Below, piece by piece: positions 23,359-58,026 of a stretch of 64,000 bases of DNA. Made by a program: the position numbers and the translations under genes. Under the pieces are notes generated by a model. That model ran no database searches, was not told where the DNA came from, and saw only the letters and a list, made by a program, of their open reading frames with translations. The DNA is from Aquibium oceanicum. Its GTDB lineage: Bacteria; Pseudomonadota; Alphaproteobacteria; Rhizobiales; Rhizobiaceae. The stretch spans positions 620,001-684,000 of the forward strand of contig NZ_CP018171.1 of NCBI RefSeq assembly GCF_001889605.1. The letters run 5' to 3'. Every line of letters begins with the position of its first letter. The first letter of the stretch is position 1.

Positions 23359-23387
23359 TTGATAAGGGCGCCCGTTGCGCCTATTTA
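23359..23387 (+). promoter_or_regulatory. Putative nfuA promoter
   Basis: TTGATA (23359-23364) is followed after 17 bases by TATTTA (23382-23387), giving a predicted start near 23394 and a leader of about 30 bases before the nfuA ATG. The -10 hexamer overlaps the Irr-like palindrome. Confidence 0.6.
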
Positions 23388-23400
23388 GAACTATTCAAAA
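23384..23400. promoter_or_regulatory. Irr iron control element (ICE) before nfuA
   Basis: TTTAGAA-N3-TTCAAAA differs by one base from the rhizobial Irr element TTTAGAA-N3-TTCTAAA. It overlaps the predicted -10 box, so bound Irr should block transcription when iron or haem is low. A perfect copy with the same central CTA lies at 57931-57947. Confidence 0.7.
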
Positions 23401-46625: not shown

Positions 46626-48158
46626 ATGGCGCTTCTGTCCGCCGCCGAGACCGGCGATATCGCCGCGCGCCACCCGGCGCTCTTCAAGCGCTCCTTCGCG
46701 CAGCGGTTCACCGGTTCGCTGGTTGCCGCCGGGATCGCGCTCTACCTCGTCTTCGTCTGGTGGTTCTTCTCCATCGGTGCGGTCTTCTCGAACGGCAACT
46801 GGGACATCGCCGGCAACTATCTCGCCGACTGGGTTTCCTACGAGGTTCGGCCCGACGTGGAGTTCGAAGAAAACCATCTGGTGATCTCCTATCCGCGCTT
46901 CTCTCCGCTCGGAGAGGACCCGCAGCCGGACTGGGTGACAACCGAACGCGCCGTCGTCGAGCGCGCAGTCAGCGGCCCCGACACCTCGAAGGGTTCGGGT
47001 GGCGGCCAGAACAGTTCGTTCGGCAGCCTGCTCGGGCCGGTCGGGGGAGATCCGGCACCTGCCGCGGAGCCAGATCTTCTGCCGACGCCCGATGCGGCGA
47101 AGCAAGAGCCGAGAACGATCCGCGGAGAGGAGATCGTCCGGACCGTCGTCGAGATCGGCCCGACCGCTGCGATCGATATCCGCCCCGGACGCGTCACCGT
47201 CACGCGCGGGCCGGAAATCCTCGACATCGATATCGTCCGCGACGAAAGCGTGGTCGCAAGCGCTCCGCTGCCGGCCTGGGCCCAGCAGCGCGCGCCCGGC
47301 GGCAAGATCATCGTCGGCTTCGGTTTCTCGGGACGCGCCGAGATCGAGAGCGACGAGGTCAAGATCCGGCACCGTTTCTGGGGCTGGGAGAACTTCGTTT
47401 TCGACACGAACTCGCCCTTCTGGGGCAGATCCTTCGGAGAAGTCGTGTCGCTGATCGTGGCGGGACCGAGGCTGGTGCCCGAAACGTCCAACTTCGCCCT
47501 TGCTGTGAACAACATCCTCTACAATGCCGAATGGCAGCATGCCGACGTCTGGATCAAGCTGCTGCAGACCATCGTCATGGCCTTCGTCGGGACTGTCTTC
47601 GCCTCGCTGCTGGCATTTCCGCTGGCCTTCGCGGCGGCGCGCAACATCACGCCGAACTTCTTCGCCAACCAGGTCTTCAAGCGCCTGTTCGACTTCTTGC
47701 GGTCCGTCGACATGCTGATCTGGGCGCTGTTCTTCACCCGTGCCTTCGGTCCGGGTCCGCTCGCGGGCATATCGGCGATCTTCTTCACCGACACGGGCAC
47801 CTTCGGAAAGCTCTATTCCGAGACGCTCGAAAACATCGACGACAAGCAGCGCGAGGGCGTCCGCTCGGTCGGGGCCGCACCGGCGGTGGTGCAGCGCTAC
47901 GGCGTCCTGCCGCAGGTGCTTCCGGTGTTTCTCAGCCAGTCCCTGTACTTCTGGGAATCGAACACACGGTCCGCCACCATCATCGGCGCCGTCGGCGCCG
48001 GCGGCATCGGCCTGAAGCTGTGGGAGGCGATGCGCACGAACCAAGACTGGGAAAACGTCGCCTACATGGTCGTGTTGATCCTGATCGTGGTCTTCGTCTT
48101 CGACAACATCTCGAACTTTTTCCGCCAGCGCCTGATGGAAGGCTCCTCCCGCCATTGA
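46626..48158 (+). CDS. phnE: Phosphonate ABC permease PhnE (second copy, long insert)
   Basis: The 510-aa permease has a first membrane helix at about 32-54, then a long predicted periplasmic segment (about 60-300) with a Gly/Ser/Pro-rich low-complexity part near 115-150, and the permease core in the last 200 residues, with EGVRSVGAAPAVVQRYG and RSATIIGAVGAGGIGLKL. The insert makes it far longer than the first copy. Long second PhnE proteins occur in rhizobia, but the insert's function is unknown. Confidence 0.92.
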   Translation: MALLSAAETGDIAARHPALFKRSFAQRFTGSLVAAGIALYLVFVWWFFSIGAVFSNGNWDIAGNYLADWVSYEVRPDVEFEENHLVISYPRFSPLGEDPQPDWVTTERAVVERAVSGPDTSKGSGGGQNSSFGSLLGPVGGDPAPAAEPDLLPTPDAAKQEPRTIRGEEIVRTVVEIGPTAAIDIRPGRVTVTRGPEILDIDIVRDESVVASAPLPAWAQQRAPGGKIIVGFGFSGRAEIESDEVKIRHRFWGWENFVFDTNSPFWGRSFGEVVSLIVAGPRLVPETSNFALAVNNILYNAEWQHADVWIKLLQTIVMAFVGTVFASLLAFPLAFAAARNITPNFFANQVFKRLFDFLRSVDMLIWALFFTRAFGPGPLAGISAIFFTDTGTFGKLYSETLENIDDKQREGVRSVGAAPAVVQRYGVLPQVLPVFLSQSLYFWESNTRSATIIGAVGAGGIGLKLWEAMRTNQDWENVAYMVVLILIVVFVFDNISNFFRQRLMEGSSRH

Positions 48159-48262
48159 TGACTTTTCCGGACCGATTTGCTATCTCGCCGTAGCCGTCGG
48201 CGGCTTCGTCATTCTGTCACGAAAATCGCCTATCCCGTCGCCCTCGGCGAGGACAGTTCCCC

Positions 48263-48970
48263 ATGCGCTATGCCATCTATTTCACGCCGCCTCATGACGA
48301 TCCGCTGACGCGCGCCGCGGCGCGCTGGCTGGCCCGCGATCCCTTCACGGGCACGTCGGTGCCGGCGCCTTCGGTGCCCGGCCTCTCGGCGGAGGAACTC
48401 GCCTATCACACGGCGTCGGCGCGGCGCTACGGCTTCCACGCCACGCTCAAGGCGCCGTTCGCGCTCGCGCCCGCCAAGACCGAAGCCTCTCTGCTCGCCG
48501 CCTTCGACACGTTTGCGGCAAGCGTCGATCCGGTCTACCTGCCGGCCATGAAGCTGAGGCGGATCAGCGGCTTCTTCGCGCTGACGCCGGCCGAGCGCAG
48601 CCCGGCGCTGGACCGGCTGGCGAGCGACATCGTCGTGGCGTTCGATCGCTTCCGCGCGCCCATGACCGACGCCGACATCGCCCGGCGCAATCCCGAATCG
48701 CTGCGGCCGGCCGAACTGAAGCACCTCCACCAGTGGGGCTACCCGTACGTCTTCGAATCCTTCTTCTTCCACATGACGCTTTCCGGGCGTATTGCCGAAG
48801 CCGATACCCCGCGCTTCACCCAGGCCGTGGAAGCCTTCTTCGGCCCTCTGCTGGGCGAGCCGCTCGACATCGCATCGCTTGCCCTCTTCGTGGAGAGGGA
48901 ACCCGGGGCGCCCTTCACCGTGCTGGCGCACCGCCCGCTGGGGCAGATGCAGCAACGAAAGTCCGCCTGA
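48263..48970 (+). CDS. DUF1045 phosphonate-locus protein, 2H phosphoesterase-like
   Basis: The 235-aa protein belongs to DUF1045, found almost only in phn loci. It contains two HxT motifs of the 2H phosphoesterase superfamily: His59-Ala-Thr61 (FHATLKAPF) and His170-Met-Thr172 (FHMTLSG). That fold opens cyclic phosphodiesters. No phnP is present, so it could hydrolyse the cyclic ribose phosphate made by PhnJ; this is inference. It is directly followed by phnM (stop and start abut). Confidence 0.88.
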   Translation: MRYAIYFTPPHDDPLTRAAARWLARDPFTGTSVPAPSVPGLSAEELAYHTASARRYGFHATLKAPFALAPAKTEASLLAAFDTFAASVDPVYLPAMKLRRISGFFALTPAERSPALDRLASDIVVAFDRFRAPMTDADIARRNPESLRPAELKHLHQWGYPYVFESFFFHMTLSGRIAEADTPRFTQAVEAFFGPLLGEPLDIASLALFVEREPGAPFTVLAHRPLGQMQQRKSA

Positions 48971-50110
48971 ATGACCACCGAAACCGTATTGTCCAATGCC
49001 AGGATCGTTCTCGCCGACGAGATCGTCGACGGGTCGGTCGTCATCCGCGACGGACTTATCGCGGACGTCTCGCCGGGCAATGCGGCGTCTGGCGAGGATT
49101 TTGGTGGCGACTACCTGATCCCCGGGCTGGTCGAACTCCACACCGACCACCTCGAAGGTCATTACGCGCCGCGCCCCAAGGTCCGCTGGAACCCGCTCGC
49201 CGCAGTGCTGGCGCATGATGCGCAGGTTGCGACCTCTGGCATCACGACGGTGTTCGACGCCTTGCGCGTCGGTCTCGACGAGGATTCCGACATCACCGCC
49301 GGCGACATGCGCCACCTGGCCGATGCGATCGAGGATGGGGTGCGGAAGGACCGCCTGCGCGCCGACCATTTCCTTCACCTGCGCTGCGAGGTTTCTGCCG
49401 ACGACTGCCTGGAAGGATTCGCGCTGTTCGACGGCGACGAGCGCGTCAGGCTCGTCTCTCTGATGGACCATGCACCGGGCCAGCGCCAGTTCGTGAATCT
49501 GGAAAACTATGCGTCCTACTATCAGGGCAAGCTGAAGCTCTCCGACGAGGCGTTCAACAGGTTTTGTGAAAAGCGGATGGGGGAGTCGGCGCGAAACTCC
49601 TCGCGCCACCGGGTCGCGCTCTCGCAGGCGTGCCGGTCGCGCGGCATCGTGCTGGCGAGCCACGACGATGCCACGACGGAGCATGTCGACGAGGCGATCG
49701 AGCAGGGCATCGTCGTCGCCGAGTTCCCGACGACCCTCGAGGCGGCGAGCGCGTCCAAGCGCGCCGGCATGGGCGTGCTGATGGGCGCGCCCAACGTCGT
49801 ACGCGGCGGATCGCATTCCGGCAACGTGTCGGCCCGCGAACTCGCCGAGCGCGGCTGTCTGGACATTCTTTCATCGGACTACATTCCCTTCAGCCTGATC
49901 CAGTCTGCATTCTTCCTCGGCGAGGTGGTGGACCAGATCTCGCTGCCGCAGGCCGTCGCGATGGTTTCGAAAAACCCCGCCGCGGCGACGGGACTGGACG
50001 ATCGGGGCGAGATCGCCATCGGCAAGCGGGCCGACCTCGTGCGCGTGCGCGTCGACGAACACATTCCCGTCGTGCGCTCGGTCTGGCGGGAAGGCCGCCG
50101 CGTCGCTTGA
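48971..50110 (+). CDS. phnM: Ribosyl-alkylphosphonate triphosphate diphosphatase PhnM
   Basis: PhnM removes pyrophosphate from the 5-triphosphate of the ribosyl phosphonate, giving the PhnJ substrate. The 379-aa amidohydrolase-family protein has the metal site region LIPGLVELHTDHLEGH, the internal RLVSLMDHAPGQRQF segment, LASHDDATTEHV and the late DYIPFSL. Its stop overlaps the phnN start by one base. Confidence 0.95.
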   Translation: MTTETVLSNARIVLADEIVDGSVVIRDGLIADVSPGNAASGEDFGGDYLIPGLVELHTDHLEGHYAPRPKVRWNPLAAVLAHDAQVATSGITTVFDALRVGLDEDSDITAGDMRHLADAIEDGVRKDRLRADHFLHLRCEVSADDCLEGFALFDGDERVRLVSLMDHAPGQRQFVNLENYASYYQGKLKLSDEAFNRFCEKRMGESARNSSRHRVALSQACRSRGIVLASHDDATTEHVDEAIEQGIVVAEFPTTLEAASASKRAGMGVLMGAPNVVRGGSHSGNVSARELAERGCLDILSSDYIPFSLIQSAFFLGEVVDQISLPQAVAMVSKNPAAATGLDDRGEIAIGKRADLVRVRVDEHIPVVRSVWREGRRVA

Positions 50111-50742
50111 TGGAAGGATCGGTTTCACGCGGCCGGAACGGTCCCGACGCGCGCGAGCGTCAGGGCGCATTCGTCGCCGTGGTCGGACCCAGCGGCGCCG
50201 GCAAGGACACGCTGATCGCCTATGCCAAGGTCCGGCTTTCGGAGAAGGGTCTGGACCGGTTTCATTTCGTGCGGCGCGTCATCACCCGGACGGCGGACGG
50301 ATCGACCGAAGACCACGACACGCTGTCGCCGCTGGCATTCGAACGGGCGGAAGCCGACGGCGCCTTCGCGCTGTCCTGGGAGGCGCACGGCCTGCGCTAC
50401 GGCCTGCCCGCGGGCGTCGACCGGCACATCTCCGCCGGCGATACGGTGGTTGCCAACCTGTCGCGCAAGGCGATCCCGGCGCTGCGGACGCGCTACCGCA
50501 ACGTCTCCGTCGTGGCCGTCGTCGCCAGCAAGGCGACGCTTTCCGCCCGCCTGATTGCGCGGGGCCGCGAAAGCGCGGAGGAGGTGGCTGCGCGGCTTTC
50601 TCGCAGCACGGAGACGGACCTAGGTATCTCCGGCGCATTCGCCACGATCGCCAATGATGGGACGATCGCGGAGGCGGGCGAGGCGCTGATTTCCGCCATC
50701 GAGGCCGCCGCCGAACTCTCGATGGCGCCGCTGGATCTCTGA
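50110..50742 (+). CDS. phnN: Ribose 1,5-bisphosphokinase PhnN
   Basis: PhnN phosphorylates ribose 1,5-bisphosphate to PRPP, ending the C-P lyase pathway. The 210-aa guanylate-kinase-like protein has Walker A GPSGAGKDT near residue 27 and the segments FVRRVITRTADG, SWEAHGLRYGLP and ARGRES. The start at 50110 (TGATG) is taken because upstream in-frame sequence lies inside phnM. It converges on the DUF1513 gene with 14 bases between. Confidence 0.93.
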   Translation: MEGSVSRGRNGPDARERQGAFVAVVGPSGAGKDTLIAYAKVRLSEKGLDRFHFVRRVITRTADGSTEDHDTLSPLAFERAEADGAFALSWEAHGLRYGLPAGVDRHISAGDTVVANLSRKAIPALRTRYRNVSVVAVVASKATLSARLIARGRESAEEVAARLSRSTETDLGISGAFATIANDGTIAEAGEALISAIEAAAELSMAPLDL

Positions 50743-50756
50743 GATACTTCGGCGCG

Positions 50757-51866
50757 TCAGCCAATCCGCAGGATGTGGTTGTCCCAGACGTATTCCGGCA
50801 GCGTCCGGTCGTCGTCCGACGCGGGGCAGACGACGCGGCCTTCGCCGGTCGTTGCGAGGTAATCAGCGCCGTCCGGCGCAAGTCCGCAGACTTCCGTCAT
50901 GTCGCGCCGAGCGACGATCTTCCTCGTCGAGGTTTCGATGACGGCCATCTGGTTGCCTTGCGGGGAGGAGACCGCGACGGTGCCACTGTCGCCATTGGCC
51001 GCGACCGAACCGATATAGTTGCGGAAGCCGGCGAGCACGTCCGGAGGCATATCGACGAGGTTGAGTTCCTCGCCGGGACGCGCGGTTCCGACCAGCGGCG
51101 GCTGGTCGAGCGCCGGCCCCTCGTACTGGCAGCCGAACCAGACCGATCCCGCATTGTCGATCGCCATGTGCCGGATCGACAGCTTGTGCAGGGCGGACGG
51201 AAGCTTGTGCTTTTCGAAGAGATCGCCCGTCTCGCGGTCGATGAAGACGAGCGAAGGCTGCATCGTGGCGATTTTCAGCTTGGCGCGGCCGAAATCCGGA
51301 TGCGTCTCGATGCCGCCATTGGCGATCGCCAGCGTCTTCCCGTCCGGCATGAGAAGCAGTTCGTGGGGGTCCATGCCGTGCGTGGGAAACTCGCCGATGC
51401 GGCTGAAGCCGTCGGTCGCGTCGTAGATGCCGATCATTCCTGCCGCGGCGTCGAAATCGTTTTCCGTCGCGTAGAGCAGCCGCCCGTCGGGCGAGAAGAC
51501 GCCGTGGCCGAAGAAGTGCCTGCCGGCGGCGCTGGCGATCGTCACCGGCTCGCCGCGGCCGGTATGGTCGAACACGACCGCGAAGGTGCCCGGCCTTCGC
51601 GCGAAGGCGACGGAGCGGCGGGTGACGGGATCAAAGGTGACGTCGTGCCCGCGGTTCGGAAGGTCTAGGCGGTGCAGTATTTCGCCACGCTCCGAGAGAA
51701 CCGCGATGCCGTAGCGCTCGTCGCGATCGACGAAGGCGGTGGCGAAGACCGCGTCGGCGGAAAGCGCCGCCATCGCTGCTTCAGGAGCGAGGCTCGCGAG
51801 GAACCCGGCACCGGCCGCCTTGAGGAAGAAGCGGCGGTTGATCAGTCCCTGCTTCGGCGCCCGCAC
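50757..51866 (-). CDS. DUF1513 Tat-exported beta-propeller-like protein
   Basis: The 369-aa protein has a clear twin-arginine signal (NRRFFLKAAGAG), so it is exported folded to the periplasm. The rest shows WD/YVTN-like repeats (FSPDGRLLYATEND, LMPDGKTLAIANGG, SSPQGNQMAVIET), suggesting a beta-propeller. The family belongs to the COG3487-3490 set of iron-regulated periplasmic proteins; its biochemical role is unknown. It is the last gene of the iron block, two bases after the second imelysin. Confidence 0.88.
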   Translation of the reverse strand: MRAPKQGLINRRFFLKAAGAGFLASLAPEAAMAALSADAVFATAFVDRDERYGIAVLSERGEILHRLDLPNRGHDVTFDPVTRRSVAFARRPGTFAVVFDHTGRGEPVTIASAAGRHFFGHGVFSPDGRLLYATENDFDAAAGMIGIYDATDGFSRIGEFPTHGMDPHELLLMPDGKTLAIANGGIETHPDFGRAKLKIATMQPSLVFIDRETGDLFEKHKLPSALHKLSIRHMAIDNAGSVWFGCQYEGPALDQPPLVGTARPGEELNLVDMPPDVLAGFRNYIGSVAANGDSGTVAVSSPQGNQMAVIETSTRKIVARRDMTEVCGLAPDGADYLATTGEGRVVCPASDDDRTLPEYVWDNHILRIG

Positions 51867-51868
51867 GA

Positions 51869-52951
51869 TCAGTCTCCGTCGAGTGAGGAAAAGCCCGCTG
51901 TCAGTCCGTATTCGCCGCTCAGCTGGCGGCCCACGAGGTCCGACAGCCCGGAGGTGACGATACGCACGTAGTCGAGCTTCGCCCGCCGGTCCGGGTCGGC
52001 GAGGATGTCGGCGATGGGGTCGTCATCGAGCGCGGCAAGCGCGCGGTCGGCATTGGCGAGTTCGAACCGGATGGAGTCAGGGATCCAGCGCTTGTCTTCG
52101 GCAAGATGTTCCTCAAGCCCGGCCGCGTCCAGAAGTCCGCCGACGGAGCGGAGGTTCGATCGGATGGCGGGGATCGTCTGCCGGGAGCGCCAGAACAGCG
52201 CCTGCTTCGGCTGGTCGTCGCCCGGCACCTCGGCGAGGAAACCGTTGATGCGCACGTCGCGAACCAACTCGAGGCCGTGGATGGCGATGTCGATCAGGTC
52301 CGACAGGGACTCCTCGCCGCTGCGGTAGAGCGGATTGTCCGCGCCGGGCTCAGTCCATAGCCGGGAGATACCGTCGTCGTCGGTCCAGCCGGCGCTGAGC
52401 TGACTCGCGGTCTCGTCCAGATTGGCGGTCACCGTCCGTGCATAGTCGCAACGGAAGCCGGCCTGATCCGCCAGGTCGTCGCTGCCGGTCCCGAACAGCG
52501 AAAACTCCAGCGCGCCGAAACCCTGCACGGCGACGCTCTTCTGCACCAGCGTGTCGAGGCTGGTGGCGGACGCGTCCTCGGTGGCGAGGATGCCCTGCAC
52601 TTGCTTGAGGCCGATGCTGCGGCGGTCCGGCCAGTAGAAGATCCGTTCGAGCCGGTTGTCCTGCGTCACCGGTCCGAAGCGGACGAGTTCGATACCGGCC
52701 CAGGCCTGCACGGCCTCGTCGAAACCGGCGCGGGCCGCTTCTAGCGTTTCCGCGGACGGCTCCTGGCAGAGGGTTTCGACCCGCTCGTGCAACGCGTCCG
52801 CCGCTGTCGCGAAGGCCCGGTAGGCGGGCTGGATGTAGCCGTGGAGAGCGCCGGCCACCATTTCAACGGCGCCGTCCGGGGATTGCGCGTACGCGGGCAC
52901 GGAGAAGACCGGCCCGAAACAGGCCAAGGCAACCAGGAAACGCAGACGCAT
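51869..52951 (-). CDS. Imelysin-family periplasmic protein (second copy)
   Basis: The 360-aa exported protein has a signal peptide ending AYAQS near residue 22 and an all-helical imelysin fold (VQAWAGIELVRFGP, HGLELVRDVRINGFL). At the position of the family GxHxxE motif it reads GFGALE (144-149), with His replaced by Gly146, so metal binding there is doubtful. It is coupled to the di-heme gene upstream (TGATG). Confidence 0.88.
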   Translation of the reverse strand: MRLRFLVALACFGPVFSVPAYAQSPDGAVEMVAGALHGYIQPAYRAFATAADALHERVETLCQEPSAETLEAARAGFDEAVQAWAGIELVRFGPVTQDNRLERIFYWPDRRSIGLKQVQGILATEDASATSLDTLVQKSVAVQGFGALEFSLFGTGSDDLADQAGFRCDYARTVTANLDETASQLSAGWTDDDGISRLWTEPGADNPLYRSGEESLSDLIDIAIHGLELVRDVRINGFLAEVPGDDQPKQALFWRSRQTIPAIRSNLRSVGGLLDAAGLEEHLAEDKRWIPDSIRFELANADRALAALDDDPIADILADPDRRAKLDYVRIVTSGLSDLVGRQLSGEYGLTAGFSSLDGD

Positions 52952-54534
52952 CAGAGAGACTCCAGAAACCGGATCAATGCCTCGCGGTCCTGTTTCGACA
53001 GGGCCTTGAAGCCGTCGCGTGCCGCTTCCGCTTCGCCGCCGTGCCACAGGATGGCCTCGGTGAGGTTTCGTGCCCGCCCGTCGTGCAGGAAGAAGGTGTG
53101 GCCGTTCACGGTCTCGGTGAGGCCGATGCCCCAGAGCGGCGGTGTGCGCCATTCGCTGCCGCGCGCGTCTCCCACCGGCTGCCAGTCGGCGAGGCCGACG
53201 CCCATGTCGTGCAGCAGGAAGTCGGAATAGGGCCAGATGAGCTGGAACGCCTGCGCCTTGTTCGGGGCGTCGCGCCTGGTGACGAATTTCGGCGTGTGGC
53301 AGCCGCCGCAGCCGAGCGAATAGAAGACGTCCTTGCCGTGCAGGACCTGCGGATCGTCGACGTCGCGGCGCGCCGGCACCGCCAGGTTCTGCGAATAGAA
53401 GGTCACCAGATCGAGCACCGGATCGGGCGCCTCGGTGTCGCCCAGACGCTCCTGCACGCCGCTCGCCGCTGCGAGGCAATCGGTCTGGGATTCGGTGCAT
53501 TCACCCCAGGAGTTTGGCACGTCGGGGGTCGAGATGCCGATGTCGCCGGCGAAGGCGTTCGCCGCCTGCTGCCGGATCGAGGCGGTCTGCGCCTTCCAGC
53601 CAAAGCGGCCGAGCGTCAGCTGTCCAGCCGCATCGCGTACCACGTTCGGCCGTCCGGAGATGCCGTCGCCGTCGGCATCGTCGGGGTCGGCCAGCGCCAG
53701 GATGTCGGCCGGGTGGATCTGCTCGACGAGGCCGAGCCCGATCATCGGCGGCGTGACGCGCGGCGACAGCGTCGTGCTGACGTTCATCGGGCCGTAGGCG
53801 AGGTCGGTGACCGAGTATTCCGGCCGCCGCAGCGAAACCACCGTGCCGTCGCCGAGGGTCACCGGAACCTCTTCGTAGGTGACCGCGACCTTGCCTTCCG
53901 ACTTGAGACCTGGGACCGCCAGGTCCTGCAACTGGCCGCCATAGACCGGGTCCGGCAGGTTGAGGATCTGCTTGTCCCTGAGGAGAGCCTGCTCTTCGGC
54001 CGTCCTTGGCGCCCGCGACAGGCGAAGGAACATGGACGACGCGTCGCCCTCGGTCGGCGGATGGCCGCGGCCGTCCTTGAGATGGCAGCTTTGGCAGGCG
54101 CGCGCGTTGAACAGCGGCCCCAGCCCGTCGGAGGCCTGGGTCGAGGAGGGCGAGGAGACCCACAGCTTGCGGAACAGGGCGTTGCCGAGCTTGAACGTCT
54201 CTTCTTCGGCGAAGGTGAGGTTGGCCGAGAAGTTCGAGAAGGCGTCGGCGTTGACGAGCTTGCGCGAGGTCGCCGCGCCGCCCTGCATGTTCTCGAACTT
54301 TTCCGGTGCGGAGAAGTCGTCAGTCGGGCGCGTCACCCTCTCGACGCGGGCGATGTCCTCGGCGGAAAGATCGTCGCGCGTCGAAGGGATCGCGGCGATC
54401 TCGGCGGCGAAGGCGCTCGCCGCGACCGCGAAGGCGGTAGCGGCCAGGGTCAGGCCGGTTGCTGCGGGAGAAACCCCGATGCGGCGCGATAAGGAAGGGC
54501 GCATGCGGCGCGCGAATGATCTCAGGGGCCGCAT
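52951..54534 (-). CDS. Di-heme c-type oxidoreductase (DUF1111, COG3488)
   Basis: The 527-aa periplasmic protein has a signal peptide near residues 20-44 and two haem c attachment sites: Cys147-Cys150-His151 (CQSCH) and Cys409-Cys412-His413 (CGGCH), plus an Asp-rich calcium-like loop DPDDADGDG. The family, often labelled thiol oxidoreductase, is related to di-haem peroxidases. In this setting it could change the redox state of iron; that is inference. An ATG at 54504 is an alternative start. Confidence 0.9.
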   Translation of the reverse strand: MRPLRSFARRMRPSLSRRIGVSPAATGLTLAATAFAVAASAFAAEIAAIPSTRDDLSAEDIARVERVTRPTDDFSAPEKFENMQGGAATSRKLVNADAFSNFSANLTFAEEETFKLGNALFRKLWVSSPSSTQASDGLGPLFNARACQSCHLKDGRGHPPTEGDASSMFLRLSRAPRTAEEQALLRDKQILNLPDPVYGGQLQDLAVPGLKSEGKVAVTYEEVPVTLGDGTVVSLRRPEYSVTDLAYGPMNVSTTLSPRVTPPMIGLGLVEQIHPADILALADPDDADGDGISGRPNVVRDAAGQLTLGRFGWKAQTASIRQQAANAFAGDIGISTPDVPNSWGECTESQTDCLAAASGVQERLGDTEAPDPVLDLVTFYSQNLAVPARRDVDDPQVLHGKDVFYSLGCGGCHTPKFVTRRDAPNKAQAFQLIWPYSDFLLHDMGVGLADWQPVGDARGSEWRTPPLWGIGLTETVNGHTFFLHDGRARNLTEAILWHGGEAEAARDGFKALSKQDREALIRFLESL

Positions 54535-54545
54535 GCGCTCACGTC

Positions 54546-55031
54546 CTAGTCCTCTTCGCCGGCGTTCCCGGCGTTCAGGAGGCCGTACTTTTCCTCGCCG
54601 AGCGACTTCATCAGGTCGAGTTGCGTCTCGAGGAAGTCGATGTGGCCTTCCTCGTCCGTCAGCAGTTCCTCGAACAGTTTCATGGTGACGTAGTCGCCGA
54701 GTTCCTGGCAGATCTCGCGTGACTTCTTGTAGGACGTGCGGGCGTCGTATTCGCCGGCGAGGTCCGATTCCAGCACTTCCCTGACGTTCTCGCCGATCCT
54801 GAGCGGCCCGACCGACTGGAGGTTCGGATGGCCTTCGAGAAAGATGATGCGCGCGACCAGCTTATCGGCGTGATGCATCTCCTCGATCGATTCCTCGCGC
54901 TCCTTCTTGGCGAGCTTGATGTAACCCCAGTCTTCCAGCAGACGATAGTGAAGCCAGTATTGGTTGACGGCACCGAGTTCCAGAAACAGGGCCTCGTTAA
55001 GCCGCTCTATGATTTGTGGTTCGCCCTTCAT
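54546..55031 (-). CDS. bfr: Bacterioferritin
   Basis: The 161-aa iron-storage protein has the complete ferroxidase site Glu18, Glu51, His54, Glu94, Glu127 and His130, and Met52 that ligates haem between subunits. It forms a 24-subunit shell that oxidises and stores iron. Its start overlaps the end of bfd by 35 bases. Placement inside an iron-uptake-like block is notable. Confidence 0.96.
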
Positions 55032-55308
55032 GACGCCTGCTCCCGTATTGACCGCGCAATCCGCGTACGCGGTCTAGGTGTGAAACGATTTCCACGGCGT
55101 TCGCCTCCGAACGCGTGTGGTAGTCCTCGGTGACCCGGATGATCGTTTCCACCACATTTGGGAAACAGCCGCAACAGCGTCCGCGCTTGGAAAGCGCGTG
55201 GTATACCTTCGCAGGCACGATCAGCTGCCACGGATCGGCGTCGAGCAGGCCGACGATGGTCCGTTCGATCTCCTTCTCGGTGATCATGTTGCAGTGACAG
55301 ACGAGCAT
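54997..55308 (-). CDS. bfd: Bacterioferritin-associated ferredoxin
   Basis: Bfd carries a [2Fe-2S] cluster and reduces Bfr to release iron. The ligands are Cys4 and Cys6 (MLVCHC) and Cys45 and Cys48 (RCCGC). At 103 aa it is longer than most Bfd proteins; a basic tail follows residue 80 and overlaps the start of bfr. Confidence 0.9.
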
Positions 55309-55315
55309 GGTGTTC

Positions 55316-56437
55316 CTATTTGCGGCTCGTGAACTCGAAACTCTTCGTCAACCTCAGTCCGATGATGTCGTAGTCCAGATCGGCCTCGCGCACGTGCGCA
55401 TAGCCGGCGCTGATGTCGATCCCGTTCTCGAACCCGTAGCCGGCGGAGACCTGGACGAGATGATCTCTCGTCGATCCGGCACCGGCGAAGTCGAGCCTGC
55501 GAACGGTTCCGGCGAGTTCGCCGTGCCAGGGACCGTTGGCGACGGAGAGCCCGACGGTGGTGTAGAGCGCATCGTCTCCCGCCAAGCCCGCGGCATCCGA
55601 GAAATAGGCGATCTCGCCGTTCAAGCCAAGAACCATGCCGCTCGCGAGCGCCGTCTCCTTGGCGAGGCCGGCCACGAACCCGTCCTCGTCGGCCGTTTCG
55701 GTGACGCCGGCCGAGAGGTGGCGGTAGCCGAGATTGTAGGAAAATCCGGGCAGTGCCTCGAGATCCGTGCCGTCGAGCGTGATGGAGAAGTTGTTCAGCT
55801 TCTCGGTGTTGCCGATCCCGCCATCGCCGATGCCCACCCTGCCGCGGCGGGTGAAGATCGAATCCGAGAGGAAGGTCGTGTCGACGAAGAAGACGTGACC
55901 GCCCAGCGTGTGCTTTCCGGCCGCCCCGGCGTCGAACTCGTAAGTCGCGCCGAAGCCGATTTGTTCGGAAAGCTCGTAGTCCTCGGCAAATTCGGTCCCG
56001 TAAACGCCCGGCGTGATGTCCCAGGCGGTGCCGAAGGCCGGGCCGAACTTCCCGGCGAAGAGCGTCGCGGCGCCGAGTTTCGCTTCGAGGTTCAACGTGT
56101 CGACGTAGAGACCGATGTCGCCGAAGGCCCGGTCCTTGAATGGCTCCGGATCGAGCACGGATTCGGCAGTCAGTCCGAAGTTGATCGCGAAGATCGGCGT
56201 CAGCCCGAGCTTCACCCCGAGTTCGCCGAGGAAATAGAGGTCGTCTACCTCCGCTCCGGGGTCGTCGGCGCGGAACACCCAATCGTTGCCGAGCTCCAGG
56301 TCCAGCGTCCCTTCGAGGTACGGATAGGTCTCCGCCACGACCGGGAGCTCCACGGGCTCGGCGAAAGCGCTGCCCGGCAGGAGCGTCCAGGCTGAAGCGA
56401 AAGCGGCCAGGAGTGACGTGGTGCGAAGCATGCTCAT
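55316..56437 (-). CDS. Predicted outer-membrane beta-barrel protein
   Basis: I do not recognise a named family. The 373-aa protein has a signal peptide (about 1-25, ending AFAEP) and then alternating hydrophobic/polar beta-strands rich in Gly, Tyr and Phe (LGYRHLSAGV, VQVSAGYGFENGIDISAGYAHV), as in porin-like barrels. The C-terminus ends in TKSFEFTSRK, not a final aromatic residue. Its position between irpA and bfd suggests passage of a metal or metal complex. The start at 56437 gives the best signal peptide. Confidence 0.7.
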   Translation of the reverse strand: MSMLRTTSLLAAFASAWTLLPGSAFAEPVELPVVAETYPYLEGTLDLELGNDWVFRADDPGAEVDDLYFLGELGVKLGLTPIFAINFGLTAESVLDPEPFKDRAFGDIGLYVDTLNLEAKLGAATLFAGKFGPAFGTAWDITPGVYGTEFAEDYELSEQIGFGATYEFDAGAAGKHTLGGHVFFVDTTFLSDSIFTRRGRVGIGDGGIGNTEKLNNFSITLDGTDLEALPGFSYNLGYRHLSAGVTETADEDGFVAGLAKETALASGMVLGLNGEIAYFSDAAGLAGDDALYTTVGLSVANGPWHGELAGTVRRLDFAGAGSTRDHLVQVSAGYGFENGIDISAGYAHVREADLDYDIIGLRLTKSFEFTSRK

Positions 56438-56469
56438 ATCCGAATGGTCCCCGATGAATTCAGTGATAC

Positions 56470-56487
56470 GTAACGTAATAACATTAC
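56470..56487. promoter_or_regulatory. Zur-like imperfect palindrome before the barrel gene
   Basis: On the minus strand, GTAATGTTATTACGTTAC matches its own reverse complement at 14 of 18 positions and resembles the TGTTAT-centred boxes of Zur-type (Fur-family) regulators. It lies 33 bases upstream of the barrel-protein ATG, within the 59-base gap after irpA. Confidence 0.4.
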
Positions 56488-56496
56488 AGCTCCTGC

Positions 56497-57783
56497 TCAC
56501 TGGAATACGGCGTCGGGATTGTCAAGGCTGTCGGACCCTTCGAAGGCAATGCCGTCGAGCTGCAGGGCGGCCACGGCCCGTTCGATGGAGCGGGTCTGGT
56601 CGATGAGCGCGTCGATCCCCGCCTGCACGGCGGCATTGCCCGCCTCGTTGCCCTCGCCGATCATCTGGTCGTAGGCCTCGCCGCCTTTCGCGCGCTCCTC
56701 CATGGCCTCCATGGCGGCCACGGTGGCGTCGAGCTTGCCGGAGAGTTCCTCGTCGAGCGCCGGGTCTACCTGCTTGACGAGATCGGACACCGAGGGGCCC
56801 TCGATCCTGGTGCCGTCGGTGCGCGCGTAGGCGGCGTGATAGACGTTGCGGATACCCACCACATCGTAGAGGTGGGAGATGTGCGTGTTGTCGGAGAAGC
56901 AGTCGTGCTCTTCCTCCGGATCGTGCAGCAGCAGGCCGAGCTTCATGCGCTCGCCGGCCAGTTCGCCGTAGGAGAGGGAGCCGAGCCCGGTGAGGATAGC
57001 GGCGACGCCCGCCTTGGGATCGCCTTCCAGGAGGTTCTGCCGCGCTTCTCCGCCCTCCTGCCAGTTGCCGACCATCTCCTCCAGGTCGGAAACGAGCAGG
57101 TCGGTCGCCGCGTCGAGATACTGCGCGCGGCGATCGCAGTGCCCGCCGGTGCAGTTCGCCGGGTCATAGTCGGTGTAGGGCCGCTCGCCGGCGCCGGCGC
57201 CTGTCCCGTTCAGGTCCTGGCCCCAGAGGAGGAATTCGATGGCGTGGTAGCCGGTGGCGACGTTCGCTTCGATATCGCCGGCTTCCTGCAGCGTGCCTGA
57301 AAGAAATTCGGGGGTGATCTCGCTGGCGTCCACCGCCGTTCCGCCGATCTCGATCGACGGATTGGCGATCACGTTGGCAGTGTAGAGCGCGTTGTCGTCG
57401 GATTCGGTGCCGTAGGCCGCATCCACGTAGTCGATGAGACCTTCGTCGAGCGGCCAGGCGTTCACGCGCCCTTCCCAGTCGTCCACGATCGGGTTGCCGA
57501 AGCGGTACGCCTCGGTCTGCTGATAGGGAATGCGGGACGCCTTCCAGGCGGTTCGCGCAGCTTCCAACGTCTCCTTCGACGGATTTGCGATCAGTGCATC
57601 GGCCGCTTCGTCCAGGGCCTTCGCGGCTGCGAGCGAATCCTCATACTTGGCCAGCGCGATATCGGAATAGGTCTGCAGCACCGGGCGGAAATCGGTCTGA
57701 GCATACGCCGCCGGCGAAAATACGATCGCGGCGACGGCGCAGACCGCCATGCGTCGCGGGGTCCGGGTTGCTGAGCTTGCCAT
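56497..57783 (-). CDS. irpA: IrpA-type imelysin, iron-regulated periplasmic protein
   Basis: The 428-aa exported protein has a signal peptide ending AYAQT near residue 29 and the imelysin motif GYHAIE (Gly178, His180, Glu183) in a duplicated helical fold. It includes CTGGHCDRRAQY, a two-Cys loop typical of the IrpA group (COG3487). Members are induced by iron limitation and thought to handle iron in the periplasm. GAGGAGGCG precedes the ATG. It is the first gene of the block and has an Irr element upstream. Confidence 0.93.
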   Translation of the reverse strand: MASSATRTPRRMAVCAVAAIVFSPAAYAQTDFRPVLQTYSDIALAKYEDSLAAAKALDEAADALIANPSKETLEAARTAWKASRIPYQQTEAYRFGNPIVDDWEGRVNAWPLDEGLIDYVDAAYGTESDDNALYTANVIANPSIEIGGTAVDASEITPEFLSGTLQEAGDIEANVATGYHAIEFLLWGQDLNGTGAGAGERPYTDYDPANCTGGHCDRRAQYLDAATDLLVSDLEEMVGNWQEGGEARQNLLEGDPKAGVAAILTGLGSLSYGELAGERMKLGLLLHDPEEEHDCFSDNTHISHLYDVVGIRNVYHAAYARTDGTRIEGPSVSDLVKQVDPALDEELSGKLDATVAAMEAMEERAKGGEAYDQMIGEGNEAGNAAVQAGIDALIDQTRSIERAVAALQLDGIAFEGSDSLDNPDAVFQ

Positions 57784-57863: not shown

Positions 57864-57893
57864 CATAAAGACTCTCCGGAGGACGCCTGTCAA
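57864..57893 (-). promoter_or_regulatory. Putative promoter of the irpA block
   Basis: On the minus strand TTGACA (57893-57888) and TTTATG (57869-57864) are spaced by 18 bases, giving a start near 57857, about 74 bases before the irpA ATG. The Irr element lies upstream of this promoter. Confidence 0.6.
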
Positions 57894-57930: not shown

Positions 57931-57947
57931 TTTAGAACTATTCTAAA
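57931..57947. promoter_or_regulatory. Perfect Irr iron control element (ICE)
   Basis: TTTAGAA-CTA-TTCTAAA is a perfect palindrome identical to the rhizobial ICE consensus bound by Irr. Its centre lies about 82 bases upstream of the predicted irpA transcription start, a place suited to activation. Confidence 0.85.
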
Positions 57948-58026
57948 CTGACTTGAGCAGAAAAGTCATGTTATACGGGAGTTGCCGGCGAGAGCAGTCG
58001 ATCCGTTGAAGCACTGTTCCGCGCTC

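Follow-up and report, generated by a model that had tools for sequence, protein, structure and literature searches.

The window analysed here, 64,000 nucleotides of Aquibium oceanicum (contig NZ_CP018171.1, positions 620,001 to 684,000), carries seven genes that run on the minus strand from position 57783 down to 50757: irpA (imelysin 1), a gene for a barrel-like outer-membrane protein, bfd, bfr, a di-haem oxidoreductase gene (DHOR), a second imelysin gene and a DUF1513 gene. We consider it rather probable that this block is an imelysin/DHOR/DUF1513 operon of a known type, responsive to iron through Irr and probably RirA, that has been enlarged in this lineage by bfd-bfr and by an optional porin and that serves the route for iron proposed below. 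What is new is the porin, a member of an unnamed family that repeatedly adjoins metal-binding systems unrelated to one another. An original prediction, made from the sequence of the same stretch, had described a seven-gene iron block on one strand, and all seven frames bear this out.

Of 61 genomes, 35 (counting that of the window) had a DUF1513 match, and neighbourhoods were taken from the other 34. In 30 of these 34 loci irpA, DHOR, imelysin 2 and DUF1513 follow one another in this order on one strand, with a gap of 1.2 kb before DUF1513 at one of the 30 (L042; L and G numbers are our handles for loci and genomes). The core families thus travel together, as had been predicted, and are not randomly adjacent. 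About 4 kb separates irpA and DHOR at L053, two loci on short contigs are incomplete (L039, L060), and L064 has no irpA or DHOR at threshold. In the larger sample of the order, DUF1513 matches 147 of 297 genomes. Two of the 30 loci carry variants: a tandem pair of imelysin-2 type genes ahead of DUF1513 (L059, 10455-12712, operon forward), and a DHOR in two adjacent frames that is either a split gene or a sequencing error (L043, 9907-11408, operon forward). One genome has four imelysin matches on three contigs, one adjoining a barrel gene and two on the contig with the DUF1513 cluster (G044; L039, L105).

As a whole, the block is less novel than first implied, since a closely similar core operon was published in 2011: passages of Xu et al. 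describe the iron-responsive Pseudomonas aeruginosa genes PA4370-PA4373, with two imelysins and a di-haem enzyme gene (PMC3143127). In the present block, too, a di-haem enzyme gene shares its strand with two imelysin genes, and one imelysin has GxHxxE and the other GxxxxE, following the motif classes of that paper (PMC3143127). It differs in having Irr and RirA-type boxes instead of Fur, and in the porin, bfd and bfr added inside the operon. PA4373 is, we assume, a DUF1513 protein; a search of the open-licence literature found no paper pairing an imelysin with DUF1513.

At 6 of the 34 loci (L034, L035, L036, L040, L044, L046) the space between irpA and DHOR is occupied by both bfd and bfr. In addition, bfr occupies this place at L062, and at L039 together with a 20-bit trace of bfd; L058 has bfd without bfr there, and at L053 and L057 both genes are upstream and divergent. 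In a quick tree search with IrpA, the rows labelled as carrying bfd and bfr after irpA fall into a single group of 10 rows, two of them identical (SH-aLRT, a Shimodaira-Hasegawa-like approximate likelihood ratio test, 86). L067 and L197 share the same IrpA sequence and probably represent a single organism. The sequences thus point to bfd-bfr as the mark of one clade. The association itself is not new: in Rhodobacter sphaeroides, passages on irpA, bfd and bfr give them consecutive locus tags (RSP_1548 to RSP_1546) and increases of 4.05-, 2.71- and 1.99-fold, respectively, in the wild type under iron limitation (PMC3413700), and a rise of irpA and bfd under low iron is also reported in parts of a second study (PMC4176601). 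No barrel is named in the passages on those three genes.

The second gene of the block had been called a barrel-like outer-membrane protein, and its predicted structure agrees. Modelled by AlphaFold2 together with 22 relatives it forms 16 strands, with a mean predicted local distance difference test score (pLDDT) of 85.8 and a predicted template modelling score (pTM) of 0.80; a model made without relatives was unusable (pLDDT 33.5). VIA-align placed the model among general porins, with Z up to 25.3 at 10% identity. Like the general 16-strand porins Omp35, OmpK35, OmpF and PorB (Z approximately 24-25; in the best row, root-mean-square deviation 2.8 over 293 residues), it has 16 predicted strands, and its strands 5 and 6 are joined by a long loop. 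It shares 8-14% identity with these proteins and departs from them in having a conserved acidic loop of its own and in matching no Pfam or NCBIfam family above cut-off. Porin_4 (PF13609) reached 18.5 bits against a cut-off of 27, in one of 23 members. The weak matches to Porin_4 and OMP_b-brl (Pfam) and to PorV_fam and AcfA_fam_omp (NCBIfam; one member each) were set aside, and a search of PDB sequences with the barrel profile gave one meaningless match. TonB-dependent receptors combine a plug domain with a 22-strand barrel; such an identity was rejected on the basis of the 16 predicted strands and the lack of a corresponding Pfam match.

Residues 129-158 are the most conserved stretch of 30 residues in the barrel (73%, against 49% elsewhere). 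They largely coincide with the predicted loop between strands 5 and 6 (residues 132-158), whose net charge is -2 to -7 in all 23 members. In 16-strand porins this loop forms the constriction. As a sign of a metal channel the acidic loop in the model is only suggestive, because ordinary porins can also have acidic loops and because the barrel protein is acidic as a whole.

In the order, 20 of 297 genomes gave a barrel match, which was clear in 18, including the window's own; the two marginal matches (G196 and G311, E approximately 9e-4; L108, L109) are kept outside the 17 clear order loci considered below. The class gave 46 of 385 genomes and a sample of the phylum 4 of 398, two of which were the window's own genome and one of the same family. 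Among 36 further genomes of the genus and family, 2 matched, and within the genus the barrel occurs in the window and, at the same place, in G002. A pattern-based scan for close relatives, covering one genome for each of 84,980 species, returned 5 loci. Two are Mesorhizobium contigs that keep the gene order of the window over the part they cover; the other three are Rickettsiales contigs that lack these neighbours. The barrel had been described as inserted into the block. A simple and very recent insertion was rejected, as the arrangement irpA-barrel-DHOR also turns up outside the family, elsewhere in the order (L092, L093, L095), although occurrence within the genus is patchy.

Next to irpA, the barrel is found again in other lineages; a comparison of such neighbourhoods had been proposed. 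In the order, irpA adjoins it in 6 of the 17 clear loci: irpA precedes the barrel at L092, L093, L095 and L099 and follows it at L096, and also at L105, where a small opposite frame lies between the two. A neighbour may have been missed on short contigs (L078, L099, L104, L105) and where the match lies close to the end of a contig (L097, L098). Among order genomes with a clear barrel and an imelysin, the two are neighbours in 7 of 10. In the class, barrel-irpA occurs in 9 of 29 loci and, in the larger stretches with this pair, is followed by DHOR in 8 of 8 and by imelysin 2 in 5 of 8. On a quickly searched barrel tree of 52 rows, adjacency to irpA (18 rows) requires 11 changes, at least 7 of which are forced by starred branches; shuffled labels require 15 on average, and 7 of 500 shuffles gave as few as 11. 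The tree therefore indicates that the adjacency is partly inherited and is not one inherited block.

irpA is not the only partner. At 6 of 40 larger class loci (L157, L158, L160, L162, L164, L167) the gene directly preceding the barrel is of ZnuA type, with 7-31 bases between the two, and three of these six neighbours were confirmed by Pfam (PF01297). At L191 an ATP-binding cassette (ABC)-3 permease gene lies just before the barrel, at L190 a divergent ZnuA gene is found, and at L180 (the same locus as L135) a CbtA gene lies just before it. Altogether, 17 of the 40 loci have a metal partner, irpA in 8 of them, as a raw count. The loci were searched with models of the seven proteins of the block (IrpA, DHOR, imelysin 2, DUF1513, Bfd, Bfr, barrel) and with a ZnuA seed; Pfam was applied only to a selection of the remaining neighbours, and several genomes contribute two loci. 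A fair statement from these sequences is that the barrel family behaves as a free agent repeatedly recruited beside metal-binding genes. Searches of open-licence papers on these subjects turned up no description of a porin paired with an imelysin or with znuA-type genes.

The readings that compete with ours overlap, and the probabilities that we attach to them need not sum to one. The first takes the barrel for a general porin of the ordinary sort that came to lie close to metal genes, its adjacency being without function. Several results weigh on that side or against our own explanation. The fold is that of general porins; at 23 of the 40 class loci nothing recognised as a metal gene lies near the barrel; and 6 of 10 Pfam-scanned neighbours are not metal genes (carboxymuconolactone decarboxylase, metallophosphatase, HXXEE, glycosyl hydrolase 4 or unmatched). 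The barrel was not found in the complete congeners G001, G003 and G004, nor in any of the 34 DUF1513 loci of relatives. Ten of the 19 barrel-matching genomes (two marginal) lack any imelysin. DUF1513 is present in 9 of the 18 genomes with a clear barrel and in 147 of the 297 of the whole sample, so that barrel and DUF1513 do not co-occur above expectation at the genome level. Nevertheless, adjacency to irpA arose in both gene orders through the changes counted above, which does not suit a single inherited block, and it is still more clustered than under shuffled labels; moreover, two unrelated periplasmic families adjoin the barrel. We thus regard a functionless general porin as rather unlikely and read the barrel as representing a metal-associated porin family, with metal transport suggested by its neighbour genes. 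More tentatively, we propose that the barrel stands for an unnamed family of porins for metal ions, one that probably belongs to Alphaproteobacteria, to judge by the named close relatives and by Irr and RirA. Its members would act without TonB through a conserved acidic eyelet and would be wired by operon to the periplasmic metal-binding system of each lineage (an imelysin where the metal is iron, a ZnuA-type protein where it is zinc or manganese and, at one locus, CbtA for cobalt). This is possible, and we would not call it probable.

Iron regulation of the block had also been foreseen and appears likely. Upstream of irpA lies a perfect Irr box (57931-57947; Table 1); the only other Irr box in the window, at 23384, has one mismatch, and 100 shuffles of the window contained none, even with two mismatches allowed. 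Across the genome of 5.3 Mb the Irr pattern has 3 perfect and 3 one-mismatch sites, while a reversed control pattern has none. Both regulators are encoded in the genome: an IrrA equivalog scores 222.1 bits (cut-off 150) and a RirA equivalog 271.5 bits (cut-off 193). The irr gene (G000:C1:614426-614770) lies approximately 5 kb before the window. The RirA-type candidate, TGA-N9-TCA, follows a short consensus; in four relatives its TGA and TCA are kept and the spacer has varied. In the window and in these relatives (L067, L034, L035, L036) TGA-N9-TCA, the Irr box and promoter candidate P2 keep a near-fixed spacing, although the sequence between them varies. These features suggest that Irr, and probably also RirA, controls the operon.

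Not all relatives conform. L068 has a 12-of-14 Irr box, TGA-N9-TCA at another distance and TTGACA without CTTTAT, and L040, L044 and L046 have an Irr box without TGA-N9-TCA and P2 on the coding strand, the box lying more than 500 bases ahead of the irpA frame in the first two. It weighs against Irr control as a general rule that a match of at least 12 of 14 upstream of irpA was found in only 9 of the 41 rows, in the part of each that was scanned, and in one of these nine (L045) it falls inside the frame. A scan for Fur boxes upstream of irpA reached at best 13 of 19, in 5 of 41 rows, and few sites beat shuffles.

Depending on the position of its box, Irr can act as a repressor or an activator, as stated in passages of a review of the field (PMC7762939). 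Activation under low iron is favoured here because the better conserved promoter, P2, sits downstream of the Irr box, although the two promoter candidates point in opposite directions. The converse would be an operon that is on when iron is plentiful, with Irr repressing at low iron and DHOR, the imelysins and Bfr protecting against iron and peroxide. Such repression would be permitted by promoter candidate P1, which overlaps the Irr box and has its second hexamer inside it. It would also match two published cases, in the parts of the papers that treat them: the start site of R. sphaeroides mbfA lies inside an Irr box, which fits repression (PMC3413700), and bfr is Irr-repressed in rhizobiales (PMC7762939). 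However, the spacing of P1 varies between 18 and 19, and with one occurrence in the scanned stretch, against a shuffle mean of 0.8, it is no more frequent than expected from chance alone. P2, 37 bases downstream of the box, is kept in the four relatives, and in the studies of R. sphaeroides cited above expression of irpA, bfd and bfr increased when iron was low. We therefore judge control in the iron-plenty direction unlikely and retain activation by Irr under low iron.

Other Irr sites of the genome were recorded. A perfect box lies before the gene of an ABC substrate-binding protein (L112, G000:C1 at approximately 3966127), which matched no NCBIfam family above cut-off; the bases following this box resemble those following the irpA box. 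The one-mismatch site in the window (23384-23400, 13 of 14) lies 23 bases ahead of a possible NifU-type gene, which reads to us like one for a NifU C-terminal protein. A second one-mismatch box is found approximately 110 bases ahead of a cysteine desulfurase gene (L115, G000:C1 at approximately 2397872), and the gene after the third is presumably that of a phosphoenolpyruvate carboxykinase. The remaining perfect box (L111, G000:C1 at approximately 1024750) is 14 bases before mbfA (NF045676, 574.4 bits; cut-off 450), directly at the gene start, unlike the box of irpA. The mbfA gene of R. sphaeroides is likewise described with an Irr box (PMC3413700).

In the explanation that we prefer, the direction of regulation, the passage of metal, the redox role and the inner-membrane carrier are steps that we infer. 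Under low iron, RirA would lose its cluster and repression would end, while Irr would persist and activate from its box ahead of the operon. Hydrated or weakly chelated iron could then reach the periplasm without TonB, through the 16-strand porin and its acidic loop. There the imelysins may hold the metal or hand it on beside the di-haem enzyme, which would set its redox state, and a carrier encoded elsewhere, perhaps the ABC system with the perfect Irr box at its binding-protein gene, would import it. Finally, Bfr would store the iron and Bfd release it. The complete route from entry to storage in the original prediction can be kept only in this conditional form: the barrel is optional, the majority of the barrel-family members examined have no imelysin next to them, and two published imelysin-like proteins bound neither ferric ion nor haem.

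As predicted, the block contains no inner-membrane iron permease. FTR1 (PF03239) gave no match in the whole genome, which speaks against uptake of the EfeU type; control matches were obtained in 4 of 14 genomes. The block resembles EfeUOB in joining an imelysin-type protein and a haem enzyme with a link to iron, to the extent that passages of Xu et al. describe that system (PMC3143127). It departs from it in having no FTR1/EfeU match and in its imelysins, both of which have the M75 domain only (Pfam), without the cupredoxin domain of EfeO; irpA scores 21.4 bits against the EfeO model NF041757 (cut-off 270).

The di-haem enzyme also invites a reading that takes iron out of the chemistry. MauG-like di-haem enzymes modify a periplasmic protein or other substrate, and the imelysin/di-haem pair might do the same, iron serving only to regulate it. 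A point in favour of such modification, and against iron handling by imelysins, is that the imelysin-like proteins PIBO and IPPA showed no specific binding of ferric ion or haem by thermofluor, in the account given in passages of PMC3143127. The link to iron regulation, here extended to bfd-bfr, points the other way, as do the acidic metal sites described for M75 proteins in parts of another study (PMC9174327). We find the modification reading unlikely and hold to a role in iron handling.

A porin-like barrel is used in TonB-independent iron uptake by Legionella (LbtU). Import of a ferric siderophore or another chelate in this manner, rather than of free metal ions, would suit the 16-strand fold, its place in an iron operon and the mention of LbtU together with 'TonB-independent' in published papers, but we consider it improbable, given that the partners here, unlike those of LbtU, are metal-binding proteins, that pairing with ZnuA-type genes, and once with CbtA, fits metal ions better than one siderophore, and that no NCBIfam siderophore-porin match was obtained at E 0.01 (the presence of such a model in the library was unchecked).

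The family names given to irpA, Bfr, DHOR, the second imelysin and DUF1513 were confirmed by Pfam or NCBIfam, and the di-haem character of DHOR by its two CxxCH motifs (Table 1). irpA in addition matched the solved chain 7xrx, an 'Insulin-cleaving metalloproteinase outer membrane protein', with 392 bits. The assignment of Bfd is supported by its cysteines (positions 4, 6, 45, 46 and 48), which fit CxC...CxxC; its PF04324 (Fer2_BFD) score of 19.8 bits stays below the curated cut-off of 26. Export of the DUF1513 protein by the twin-arginine pathway is supported by its signal motif, and its propeller-like nature only weakly, by short matches to 6-phosphogluconolactonases (best E 1.3e-4). PDB sequence searches with Bfd and with DHOR gave no useful match. 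Regarding the overlaps or small gaps that had been described, an overlap of irpA and barrel through GTG 56500 was rejected, as relatives favour ATG 56437, 59 bases after irpA; the start of imelysin 2 at ATG 52951 does overlap the DHOR stop by one base (TGATG). On the plus strand, permease, DUF1045 and amidohydrolase genes (46626-50742), which we take to be probably a phosphonate cluster, converge on DUF1513, the last frame ending at 50742 and DUF1513 at 50757.

Table 1. Operon genes and upstream elements, with positions in the window
Feature	Position	Strand	Basis or remark
RirA-type iron-responsive operator (IRO) box candidate, TGA-N9-TCA	57954..57968	minus	short consensus
Promoter candidate P1, ATGACT-N18-TAGAAT	57940..57969	minus	overlaps Irr and RirA-type boxes
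Irr box / iron control element TTTAGAATAGTTCTAAA	57931..57947	minus	14 of 14 consensus positions
Promoter candidate P2, TTGACA-N17-CTTTAT	57865..57893	minus	37 bases downstream of Irr box
irpA / imelysin 1	56497..57783	minus	PF09375 305 bits; GYHAIE (GxHxxE) at residue 178
Barrel gene, predicted unnamed 16-strand porin-like protein	55316..56437	minus	ATG 56437 start preferred over GTG 56500
Codons of barrel residues 129-158, predicted strand 5-6 loop, acidic	55964..56053	minus	most conserved 30-residue stretch
bfd-like [2Fe-2S] protein, divergent	54997..55308	minus	PF04324 below cut-off; cysteine pattern
bfr, bacterioferritin	54546..55031	minus	TIGR00754 185.4 bits, cut-off 125.55
DHOR, di-haem oxidoreductase	52951..54534	minus	PF06537 338.5 bits; CxxCH twice (147, 409)
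Imelysin 2	51869..52951	minus	PF09375 161.8 bits; GFGALE (GxxxxE only), without GxHxxE
DUF1513 protein	50757..51866	minus	PF07433 376.7 bits; twin-arginine motif NRRFFL

The crossing of the outer membrane by unchelated metals is usually ascribed to non-specific porins. If the proposal is correct, dedicated metal entry without TonB could be tested directly on a porin family that recurs next to various metal-binding proteins of the periplasm, and the poorly understood imelysin/di-haem/DUF1513 system would gain a candidate partner in the outer membrane. A concrete test of how bfr could join an operon of iron starvation is offered by the Irr and RirA-type boxes.

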